64,000 bases of DNA, taken from positions 1,550,001 to 1,614,000 of the forward strand of contig NZ_CP093340.1 in assembly GCF_022637415.1 (NCBI RefSeq), given 5' to 3'. This document shows positions 58,792-61,272 of the stretch, in pieces. The stretch comes from Luteimonas sp. S4-F44. GTDB lineage: Bacteria; Pseudomonadota; Gammaproteobacteria; Xanthomonadales; Xanthomonadaceae. Position numbers and translations under genes: made by a program. The notes beneath the pieces are model-generated. The model searched no databases, was not told where the DNA came from, and was given only the letters and a program-made list of their open reading frames with translations. Within the stretch, counting starts at the first letter, position 1. Each line of letters begins with the position of its first letter.

Positions 58792-59391
58792 ATGGCGCGT
58801 TGGATGGGACTGCCGGCCGTGGCCGCGCTCGCACTGACTGCATGCGTGACGATCAACGTCTATTTTCCTGCCGCCGAGGCCAAGGAAGCGGCGCGCGAGT
58901 TCGTGGAGAACGTGATCGGCGACACCCCGGCCGCGCAGCCGCCTGCGCCGTCGACGACGCCCGGCGGCGGCATGGCCCAGCGCGGCACGGGTTTCGATCC
59001 GTGGATGCTGCTGGGCATCGGCACCGCCCAGGCTCAAACCCCGGACGTCACGATCCGCACGCCGGCGATCCAGGCGATCCAGTCGCGCATGGAGCAGCGT
59101 TTCAACGGCACGCTGCGTCCGCATTTCGATTCCGGGGCGCTCGGCTTCGGCGGCAATGGCCTGATCGTGGTCCGCGATGCCTCGCAGTTGCCGATCAAGG
59201 ACCGGGTCGCGGTCAACACCGCGGTCGCCGACGACAACCGCGATCGCCAGGCGGTGTACCGCGAGATCGCGGTCGCCAACGGTCATCCCGAATGGGAGTC
59301 GCAGATCCGCGACGTGTTCGCGCGGCAGTGGATCCAGAGCGCGCGTCCGGGCTGGTGGTATCAGCAGGGTGGGAGCTGGACGCAGAAGTAG
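58792..59391 (+). CDS. YdbL/DUF1318-like lipoprotein
   Basis: A 199-residue probable lipoprotein with lipobox LTAC (Cys18) followed by VTINVYFPAAEAKEAAREFVENVIG, a short strand like that of the E. coli lipoprotein YnbE. After a Pro-rich linker, residues about 85-199 match YdbL/DUF1318: KDRVAVNTAVADDNRDRQAVYREIAVANG...IRDVFARQWIQSARPGWWYQQGGSWTQK. So it may combine in one chain what E. coli splits between YnbE (outer-membrane lipoprotein) and YdbL (periplasmic helper). ACAGGAGA precedes the ATG. It is 35 bases after the YdbH-like gene and almost certainly works with it. Confidence 0.8.
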   Translation: MARWMGLPAVAALALTACVTINVYFPAAEAKEAAREFVENVIGDTPAAQPPAPSTTPGGGMAQRGTGFDPWMLLGIGTAQAQTPDVTIRTPAIQAIQSRMEQRFNGTLRPHFDSGALGFGGNGLIVVRDASQLPIKDRVAVNTAVADDNRDRQAVYREIAVANGHPEWESQIRDVFARQWIQSARPGWWYQQGGSWTQK

Positions 59392-59934
59392 GGGCTTTGT
59401 CGAGTACGGGAATGGGCTTCACTTCGAATGGGTAGCGGCCTGCCGGCCGGAAGTCGCTCTCCCCTCGGTCAGGACATCCTGTCCTGACTCGGGCGCGCGC
59501 CATCCCTGGCGCGCTTGGCGCGGCCACCGACCGCCAGTCCGCTGCTGTGGACGTAAGCAACCCGACTTCGGGTCGACGCAGAAAGCCATCTGGTTGAAGA
59601 AGTCGCGTGCTTCTCGGCCTCAGTGCGTCGTGCTGGTCGGGGATTGCGATAGCAGGCCAGGGATGGCCTGCGGCGGCGAGTCAGCCATGGAGGGCTGACC
59701 GAGCCGGGGAGCAGTCCCCGGCCGGCGCGATGCGCGCTCCGGAGAAGAACGCCTTAATGGAGTGAGCGTGAGCAAGATTCCCTCCGGAACGTGGTGAAGA
59801 ATCAGAAGTAGTGGACTTCGGCACCTGATGGACGATCTGCGTCGGCGTATGTGATACCCGTCGCGCAGGCCCGGTCCGACGGAGTGCCGGCTTCTGCGAC
59901 AATACGCGGCCTTTCCGCCCGCAGCCTTCGCCAC
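59392..59934. repeat. Intergenic region with two inverted copies of a multi-hairpin repeat
   Basis: A 543-base noncoding region. Copy A, on the minus strand (about 59455-59515), and copy B, on the plus strand (about 59651-59722), each have in order a hairpin with CCA-GGGA-TGG at its tip, a linker ending CGAG, a second hairpin beginning TCAG and ending CTGA, the bases CCGAG, and a third GGGGA-type hairpin. Plus-strand hairpins are at 59495-59514 and 59468-59488 (copy A) and 59652-59671, 59681-59698 and 59703-59722 (copy B). Stem 1 differs by paired changes (GCGC versus GCAG with matching partners). A GTAG followed by a small CGGCC/GGCCG stem at 59432-59450 resembles REP elements of Stenotrophomonas. 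No gene is seen. Confidence 0.75.
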
Positions 59935-61272
59935 GTGGCCCGCAAACGCCTCGATCAGACTCCTTTCCAGGTCGACATCCTCGACCTGACCCACGATGGC
60001 CGCGGTGTCGCGCGGCTGCCCGACGGCAAGGCCGTATTCGTCGCCGGGGCGCTGCCGGGCGAGCAGGTCGTCGCCCAGCGCACTGCGCGCTCGCGCAGCT
60101 TCGACGAGGCGGTGACGCTCGAGGTGCTGCGTGCCTCCGAGCACCGGATCGCACCGCGCTGCGCGCATTTCGGCGTCTGCGGCGGCTGCGTGCTGCAGCA
60201 CCTGGACGCCGAGCAGCAGATCCAGGCCAAGCAGCGGGTGCTGCGCGAGAACTTCGAGCGCATCGGCCACGTCACGCCGCAGCGCTGGATGGCACCGCTG
60301 GTCGACCGCGCCTGGGGCTACCGCCGCAAGGGCCGCTTTTCGGTGCGGCGGGTGGAGAAGAAAGACAAGACGCTGGTGGGCTTTCGCGAGCGCGATCCGC
60401 GCTTCGTTGCCGACCTGCACGAATGCCACACGGTGATCCCGCCGATCGGCGCGGCGATCCCGGCGCTGTGCGCGCTGGTCGACGGCCTCGATGGCCGCGG
60501 CGACATTCCGCAGATCGAGTTCATCGCCGGCGACCCGACTCCCGAGTTCGACGGCGTGGCGCTGGTGTTCCGCCACCTGCAGCCGCTGAGCGAGCGCGAC
60601 CTCGCGGCGCTGACCGCGTTCGGCCAGCAGCAGCGGATGGCGATCTTCCTGCAGCCGGGCGGCAATGACAGCGTGCACCCGCTGTGGCCGCAGGCGCCGG
60701 CGCTGTCGTTCCGTCTCGAGGCCTGGGATGTCGAGCTGAAGTTCCGGCCGCTGGATTTCATCCAGGTCAATGCGGGCCTCAACGGCACGATGATCGCGCG
60801 CACGCTCGAACTGCTCGACGTGCAACCCGACGACCGCGTGCTCGACCTGTTCTGCGGTCTGGGCAATTTCACCCTGCCGCTGGCGCGCCGCGTGCGCGAG
60901 GTCGTCGGTGTCGAGGGCGAAGCCGGGCTGGTCGCGCGCGCGCGGGAGAATGCCGTGCACAACGGCCTGGGCAACGCGCAGTTCCATGCCGCCGACCTGA
61001 CCCAGGATCAGCGCGGCGCACCGTGGATGCGTCAGGGCTTCGATAAGCTGCTGCTCGACCCGCCGCGGTCGGGCGCGATCGACGTGCTGCGCCAACTGCC
61101 GCTCGAACGTTTCGCCCGCATCGTCTACGTCAGCTGCCACCCGGCGTCGCTGGCGCGCGATTCCGGCTATCTGGTCAACGAGCGCGGCTGGCGACTCGTC
61201 GACGCAGGCGTGATGGACATGTTCCCGCAGACCGCGCACGTGGAATCGATCGCGGTGTTCGAGAGGAAGTAG
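59935..61272 (+). CDS. rlmD: 23S rRNA (uracil-1939-C5) methyltransferase
   Basis: A 445-residue SAM-dependent RNA methyltransferase (RumA). A TRAM domain at the start (VDILDLTHDGRGVARLPDGKAVFVAGALPGEQV) is followed by the 4Fe-4S ligands Cys76, Cys82, Cys85 and Cys164. The SAM site is LDLFCGLGNFTLPLA, and the catalytic Cys is in IVYVSCHPASLARD. It methylates U1939 of 23S rRNA. The start is GTG at 59935; the frame is open to 59851 but begins inside the repeat-rich region. A TGCGACAAT extended -10-like motif lies at 59895-59903. Confidence 0.94.
   Translation: MARKRLDQTPFQVDILDLTHDGRGVARLPDGKAVFVAGALPGEQVVAQRTARSRSFDEAVTLEVLRASEHRIAPRCAHFGVCGGCVLQHLDAEQQIQAKQRVLRENFERIGHVTPQRWMAPLVDRAWGYRRKGRFSVRRVEKKDKTLVGFRERDPRFVADLHECHTVIPPIGAAIPALCALVDGLDGRGDIPQIEFIAGDPTPEFDGVALVFRHLQPLSERDLAALTAFGQQQRMAIFLQPGGNDSVHPLWPQAPALSFRLEAWDVELKFRPLDFIQVNAGLNGTMIARTLELLDVQPDDRVLDLFCGLGNFTLPLARRVREVVGVEGEAGLVARARENAVHNGLGNAQFHAADLTQDQRGAPWMRQGFDKLLLDPPRSGAIDVLRQLPLERFARIVYVSCHPASLARDSGYLVNERGWRLVDAGVMDMFPQTAHVESIAVFERK

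Follow-up and report, generated by a model that had tools for sequence, protein, structure and literature searches.

A dispersed, often head-to-head paired three-way-junction element with GGA loops in Luteimonas and other Lysobacteraceae, a candidate RsmA-binding relative of TwoAYGGAY RNA

Introduction

In the 3.69-Mb single-contig genome of Luteimonas sp. S4-F44, the spacer between a ydbL-like gene and a methyltransferase gene houses two similar, hairpin-rich sequences in opposite orientation, copy A on the minus strand and copy B on the plus strand. The spacer lies at 59392-59934 of the window, by which we mean the whole analysed stretch of 64,000 nucleotides (positions 1550001-1614000 of the genome). 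A preliminary description took the two copies for a pair of multi-hairpin repeats whose paired stem changes point to selection on structure, either as an RNA family or as palindromes moved by a REP-type transposase. The question raised by this locus is therefore what kind of element the pair represents, and whether its structure is maintained as RNA or as DNA.

Results

Anatomy of the two copies

Copies A and B are head-to-head neighbours of one element of ~135 nt. An outer stem of 20-25 pairs (P1) encloses two inner hairpins (P2 and P3), giving a three-way junction. The features below were placed with minimum free energy (MFE) folds and with R1, a covariance model built from 53 aligned copies.

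58792..59391, plus strand: gene of a YdbL-like protein, DUF1318 (PF07027), upstream of the repeat pair, context only
59418..59551, minus strand: copy A, whole element (R1 positions 1-136, 103 bits, E 1.8e-20; fold z -4.1)
59517..59543, minus strand: copy A, P1 5' arm (MFE fold and consensus structure), inside the stretch earlier called unrelated
59514-59495, minus strand: copy A, hairpin P2 GCGCGCCAGGGATGGCGCGC, tip AGGGAT at 59502-59507, within CAGGGATG
59488-59468, minus strand: copy A, hairpin P3 GTCAGGACAGGATGTCCTGAC, tip AGGAT at 59476-59480, CCC..GGG flanks
59434..59457, minus strand: copy A, P1 3' arm (MFE fold)
59552..59615, no strand: middle segment, 64 bp between the two R1 matches (R1 coordinates), with a similar layout in three close genomes
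59616..59749, plus strand: copy B, whole element (R1 positions 1-136, 115.8 bits, E 2.0e-23; fold z -6.6)
59623..59647, plus strand: copy B, P1 5' arm (MFE fold)
59652-59671, plus strand: copy B, hairpin P2 GCAGGCCAGGGATGGCCTGC, tip AGGGAT at 59659-59664, within CAGGGATG
59680-59699, plus strand: copy B, hairpin P3 GTCAGCCATGGAGGGCTGAC, spanning 59675..59705 with its flanking GGC/GCC
59711..59735, plus strand: copy B, P1 3' arm (MFE fold)
59935..61272, plus strand: gene of an RlmD/TrmA-type (uracil-5-) methyltransferase, downstream; start codon uncertain, the listed ORF opening at 59851

The arms, loops and linkers quoted in the preliminary description are present in the sequence of both copies, and the hairpin pair is real, but it had been described too small since the outer stem P1 was missed. 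Nor are the ~135 bases between the hairpin clusters unrelated, as had been stated: they contain the 5' P1 arms of both copies, and pieces of the stretch made up of copy A and this middle part recur elsewhere in the genome, the stronger matches with 76-89% identity; one of these has 82% identity and covers 248 of the 251 bases of the query.

In the window copies the loops of P2 and P3 carry ANGGA/AGGA 26-28 nt apart. None of the 200 shuffles made of each copy folds as well as the copy itself, a result far outside chance expectation. The MFE of copy B was -89.7 kcal/mol for the sense strand, compared with -62.5 +/- 4.1 in shuffles and -67.6 for the antisense strand, whereas that of copy A was nearly equal on both strands (-71.8 versus -72.1); as judged by these values, the sign of a preferred strand is clear for copy B and absent for copy A. 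The P3 flanks of copy B are compatible with a tandem GA (59678-59679 facing 59701-59702), although the MFE fold pairs those bases differently. No promoter resembling the sigma-70 consensus was seen in the spacer or its middle segment, nor was a terminator in the spacer.

Copy number and distribution

A BLAST search of the same genome with copy B gave 15 matches at E<2e-4, itself included, and R1 recognised 24 places at E<1e-3 (30 at E<=1). The covariance-model check proposed in the preliminary description thus brought up many further copies, and more were found across the Lysobacteraceae: three close relatives have 29, 39 and 42, and of 149 family genomes, ours among them, 46 gave a match. In this survey of 149 the per-genome counts are lower bounds, with 22 candidates scored each. 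Some congeners had none. In a class-wide sample, with 14 candidates scored per genome and stricter filters, R1 matched at E<=1e-4 in 4 of 232 genomes, namely our own, one other member of the family and, weakly, two distant ones. Weak single matches of 42 and 38 bits were seen in one distant family of the class (G259:C52:9721-9875 and G369:C1:72070-72223; loci L348 and L349).

Named genomes were scanned with a cross-species pattern fixing CGAGTCA..GGAT..TGACCGAG. P1 and P2 lie outside this pattern, while most of P3 is invariant by construction, its letters being fixed. At least 120 stretches were found, and the 80 loci listed formed the set used. Luteimonas, Lysobacter, Pseudoxanthomonas, Xanthomonas, Stenotrophomonas and unclassified Lysobacteraceae accounted for 74 of them; the six outside the Lysobacteraceae were dropped as chance, and eight truncated or insert-bearing loci were omitted before alignment. 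The element had no match in plasmid and phage collections, and viral contigs gave one exact match to the pattern.

Behind ydbL, the element occupies the ydbL-rlmD spacer in 4 of the 28 genomes of the genus that gave a ydbL gene (own included), those with the most similar ydbL, and the other 24 spacers hold no R1 match above 20 bits. The suggested effect on the transcript of the YdbL-like gene is thereby not borne out. Since the distribution over the family is also patchy, no single copy is indispensable. By eye, a terminator-like hairpin is seen behind ydbL in some relatives whose spacer there has no copy of the element.

Pairing, placement and rearrangement

In our genome and the three close ones, neighbouring copies less than 700 bp apart comprised 33 head-to-head, 2 tandem and 0 tail-to-tail arrangements, orthologous pairs being counted more than once. 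The head-to-head pairs contained 66 of the 134 copies. Their spacing was 56-90 bp in 23 of the 33, and one was an overlapping fused copy. Several Xanthomonas loci (L092, L094 and L125) have direct repeats instead of head-to-head pairs, and in G073 two copies at a distance of 768 bp stand tail-to-tail. In the one wide pair inspected, in G099, a hypothetical ORF lies between copies that are ~890 bp apart.

Spacers were classified with a home-made codon-usage gene scorer, which misses small genes (ydbL among them) and placed 5 of 83 copies inside an ORF. The 74 classified rows of the 83, in which paired and orthologous copies count separately, comprised 40 convergent, 31 tandem and 3 divergent spacers; the shortage of divergent spacers has the look of tolerated insertion. 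Within tandem spacers 15 copies lay on the strand of the genes and 16 on the opposite one, a balance partly forced by the head-to-head pairs.

Comparison by eye of the four element-bearing ydbL spacers (own, G156, G178 and G182) revealed an inverted middle segment in two (G156 and G178), an apical insert in a P3 loop in three (G156, G178 and G182) and an inserted unrelated palindrome in one (G178). The inversion, seen between the window spacer and loci L274 and L275, is as recombination between inverted copies would give. Elsewhere in our genome (2004771-2005210) a copy has an insert of ~90 nt in its P2 loop, and by eye its G178 orthologue is a plain hairpin. Copies turn over fast at their loci. 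The orthologous spacers compared among these four genomes are too rearranged to yield a clean empty site and its duplication; as to MITE features, the P1 arms are inverted repeats, and a target-site duplication was not seen in the spacers compared.

Several further observations concern these insertions. Apical inserts start with GGTGAG and end near GGACCG..GCGG; at ~80-90 nt, they replace the GGA loop of P2 or P3 (L276 in G182, L213 versus L343, and L328), and orthologous copies with and without insert exist, which makes the tips of the hairpins resemble sites for grafting. Several elements have, within them or alongside, an insertion of a second palindromic repeat that is unrelated to them, AAAACCGGGGTCAGAGTGCAATTTCGC..GCGAAATTGCACTCTGACCCCGGTTTT, in our genome near 333160, 812300, 1154100 and 1791000 (L012, L013, L014 and L010) and elsewhere at L274, L329, L319, L354 and L355. 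In two congeners (L283 and L284) the spacer downstream of ydbL contains yet another palindrome, TGTAGGAGCAGCTACAGCTGCGACC, which is REP-like.

Covariation and strand asymmetry

RNAalifold on the MAFFT alignment of the 53 copies predicted 37 pairs, 28 of which keep pairing through changes on both sides. In this consensus structure 95% of the cells are paired, and its covariation score was 0.596, compared with 0.167 for shuffles and at most 0.087 for slid structures. P1 in particular varies in sequence between copies yet stays paired. These values agree with the earlier proposal of an RNA-family-like element under structural selection. That proposal had been drawn from the paired changes between A and B; its direction was right, but two copies alone are insufficient proof, since templated correction of quasipalindromes also yields paired changes.

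The triplets flanking P3 (3 nt before GAG and 3 after CCGA; GGC/GCC, CCC/GGG, CGC/GCG or CGG/CCG) were complementary in 180 of the 181 readable copies among 234 distinct ones, although for some of these copies the search pattern itself dictated one of the three pairs. As these triplets vary while staying complementary, they explain the linker difference between A and B. Such flank pairing would put GA opposite GA beside P3, in the manner of a tandem GA, but both RNAalifold and the MFE folds pair those bases otherwise.

A DNA cruciform treats both strands alike, and G-T and A-C mispairs should then be equally frequent on the sense strand. The P1 cells of the 53-copy alignment held 119 G-U but 11 A-C. 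As a guard against a bias towards G-U from alignment and structure, we took 100 mutually dissimilar copies and realigned their P1 with only Watson-Crick pairs rewarded; this gave 174 G-U versus 17 A-C, with G-U exceeding A-C in 83 copies and the reverse in 4. In a control in which 3' P1 arms were swapped among copies (20 rounds), the means were 75 G-U and 36 A-C. The ratio is thus about 10:1 in P1 and 2:1 in the control, indicating selection on just one of the strands in its single-stranded form, as is the case for RNA; it should be underlined that single-stranded DNA also favours G-T over A-C. Counting of this kind can separate an RNA-like repeat from a strand-symmetric palindrome, and the asymmetry over many copies also argues against templated correction.

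Orthologous copies were compared as well, and as these comparisons overlap, the counts are indicative only. One-sided changes in P1 comprised 15 between Watson-Crick and G-U, 3 between Watson-Crick and A-C and 4 between Watson-Crick and another mismatch; the remaining changes were 3 double Watson-Crick replacements and 5 of other kinds. The one-sided changes hint at selection after insertion.

GGA loops

Among 206 aligned matches, the P2 loop, which lies outside the search pattern, was mostly ANGGAT with T, G, A or C as N (ATGGAT in 105, AGGGAT in 42, AAGGAT in 17 and ACGGAT in 11). GGA was present in 203 of the 206 P2 loops and likewise in 203 of the 206 P3 loops, where GGAT is fixed by the pattern behind the model and the tip is often without the N (AGGAT). 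Expanded loops occurred in 10 of the 206. CANGGANG was found somewhere in 216 of the 234 distinct copies, compared with 17 expected from letter shuffles.

A(N)GGA is given as the CsrA/RsmA consensus (PMC4066749), and in the element it occurs in hairpin loops and in pairs, as a CsrA/RsmA-binding RNA should have it by sequence. The two loops look like landing sites for CsrA/RsmA. The free N in an otherwise fixed ANGGAT would fit CsrA better than a mark for a transposase. The genome encodes one CsrA/RsmA protein gene (PF02599, 90 bits).

Relation to TwoAYGGAY and other known RNAs

At curated cut-offs, Rfam gave no match in the window and none in 10 relative loci. Copy B matched TwoAYGGAY (RF01731) with 23.9 bits, below the cut-off of 43, and copy A was not among the matches; at E<=1, copy B was the only one of the 24 copies in the genome to be recognised. 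In eight element-bearing loci of named genomes there was one TwoAYGGAY match at E<=10 (27.6 bits) and one RsmW match over the element (25 bits) from the same clan, CL00106, which TwoAYGGAY shares with rsmX and RsmW. When 21 genomes were searched with RF01731, 12 had matches at E<=1 and four had matches above cut-off, the latter at 11 places, the best of which reached 58.7 bits across all 168 model positions. At these places R1 scored 62-78 bits in seven (G158 and G150), 37-39 bits in two (G164), and 22 (G164) and 16 bits (G161) in the remaining two. The RF01731 matches include head-to-head pairs in G150 and G130. In G130, 15 matches to RF01731 at E<=1 were accompanied by none to R1 at E<=1e-3, and locus L313 scored 40.2 bits with RF01731 and had no R1 match. 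Because intermediates in relatives link the window element to RF01731, it is best seen, from these sequence comparisons, as a diverged and multiplied branch of the TwoAYGGAY kind.

Two side observations belong here. The RF01731 matches of G130, a congener, several of them head-to-head, possibly represent a sister branch of the repeat. In a genome of another family of the order (L308 in G164), the RNase P RNA gene has copies of TwoAYGGAY/R1 type to its left and right, three in all.

TwoAYGGAY has been described as having two matches to the CsrA motif, an external stem of low conservation and, in one stem, tandem GAs, and it is predicted to bind CsrA, validation being pending in that account (PMC4333381). 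The window element resembles it in its two neighbouring hairpins enclosed by an external stem and, in part, in their AYGGAY-type loops: P2 has ANGGAT with any N, and P3 is often without the N. Unlike TwoAYGGAY, the element is multicopy, dispersed and often head-to-head, its window copies score below cut-off, its outer stem covaries strongly, many P3 tips are AGGAT and some copies bear apical inserts. The preliminary description had held that a match to a catalogued family would remove its novelty: copies of some relatives do pass the TwoAYGGAY cut-off, but the window copies fail it. Among the open-licence papers listed, as judged by titles and abstract openings, none dealt with a dispersed repeat of this sort in Lysobacteraceae. 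The multicopy, paired, mosaic form is new as far as searched, and partly catalogued through relatives.

RsmX/RsmY/RsmZ and CsrB/CsrC are dedicated sRNA genes with several sites each, whereas the element has two candidate sites per copy and many copies. Those RNAs titrate RsmA/CsrA by GGA hairpins (PMC4333381). RsmU of Xanthomonas campestris, an RsmA-sequestering RNA with GGA motifs, derives from the 3'-UTR of the XC1332 mRNA (PMC7694677). It is thus an RsmA-binding RNA with GGA motifs from the same bacterial family; it differs in being described from the 3'-UTR of a single mRNA, with no Rfam homologue reported (PMC7694677).

Comparison with REP elements

REPs are described as short palindromes headed by GT(A/G)G (PMC2817692), and no such head was seen by eye before the hairpins in our alignment. 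REPs/BIMEs and the element are alike in being multicopy, palindromic, intergenic and mosaic, in forming inverted doublets, and in their occurrence in Xanthomonas and Stenotrophomonas (PMC2817692). The element differs in being a three-way junction of ~135 nt and in its relation to Y1 transposases. Mobilisation by a REP-associated tyrosine transposase, an idea of the preliminary description, was rejected: PF01797 (Y1_Tnp) has no match in our genome, and over the 149 family genomes there was no association, the domain being present in 29 of the 46 genomes that carry the element and in 75 of the 103 that do not (counts read by eye from two tables).

Discussion

We regard the element, with slightly better than even confidence, as a structured RNA module of the TwoAYGGAY kind which has multiplied as a dispersed repeat in Lysobacteraceae and is a candidate for binding or titrating RsmA. 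Its copies occur alone, in head-to-head pairs or, at some Xanthomonas loci, directly repeated. Copies could be transcribed by read-through from neighbouring converging or tandem genes, or from another start, and the transcribed sense strand would fold into the three-way junction. The variable but paired P1 would then hold up P2 and P3 and present their ANGGA/AGGA loops, and, going by what is established for CsrA, both could be held by a single CsrA/RsmA dimer. The copies may thus bind and titrate RsmA, or RsmA may stabilise or process them as 3'-UTR-derived RNAs; the RsmU precedent makes the steps of transcription and titration plausible (PMC7694677). Element RNA probably binds RsmA, and a function of this kind is a well-founded hypothesis.

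The strongest competitor, though in our estimate a doubtful one, is a non-autonomous mobile DNA repeat (REP/MITE-like) without RNA function, folding only for its movement, for instance as a single-stranded DNA hairpin read by some transposase, with GGA as recognition marks. Such a repeat would account for the 24 copies here and 29-42 in close relatives, for 33 head-to-head arrangements against 2 tandem and none tail-to-tail with 23 spacings of 56-90 bp, for the placement in 40 convergent, 31 tandem and 3 divergent spacers, and for the mosaic copies, apical inserts and inverted middle at orthologous sites, and as single-stranded DNA it would likewise favour G-T over A-C. It sits less easily with the missing Y1 match in our genome and the missing association over 149 genomes, with the lack of matches in plasmid or phage collections, with the free N of the otherwise fixed ANGGAT loop, which suits CsrA better, and with the changes between orthologues (15 towards or from G-U versus 3 A-C and 4 other, indicative only).

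That the element is a cis-acting 3'-end structure, protecting or attenuating the upstream transcript like the REPs of Escherichia coli, seems unlikely to us, even though copies are mostly located after stop codons and some element-free relatives have, by eye, a terminator-like hairpin behind ydbL; 24 of 28 genomes of the genus do without it at that site, the strands in tandem spacers are balanced at 15 to 16 (partly forced by the pairs), and the conservation of the loop sequence would be left unexplained. Template-switch correction of quasipalindromes yields paired changes and perfect hairpins, and could keep the arms complementary with no selection at all. We hold this to be very improbable, as correction would restore Watson-Crick pairs and be blind to the strand, and would explain neither the 10:1 excess of G-U over A-C nor the conservation of loops and linkers.

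Returning to the RNA module, we consider it possible, though less likely than not, that a regulator-binding RNA has turned genomic parasite, or a parasite has turned sponge of a regulator, and that copy number tunes the RsmA network, since each paired insertion would add two folded RNAs with two RsmA sites each. If so, the tuning of this network would differ between close relatives. Were the copies transcribed, each genome would hold dozens of RsmA traps with two sites apiece, together a dispersed sponge that changes in size through insertion, mobile repeats would have a route to rewire a global regulator, and TwoAYGGAY would gain many natural copies for testing in soil bacteria.
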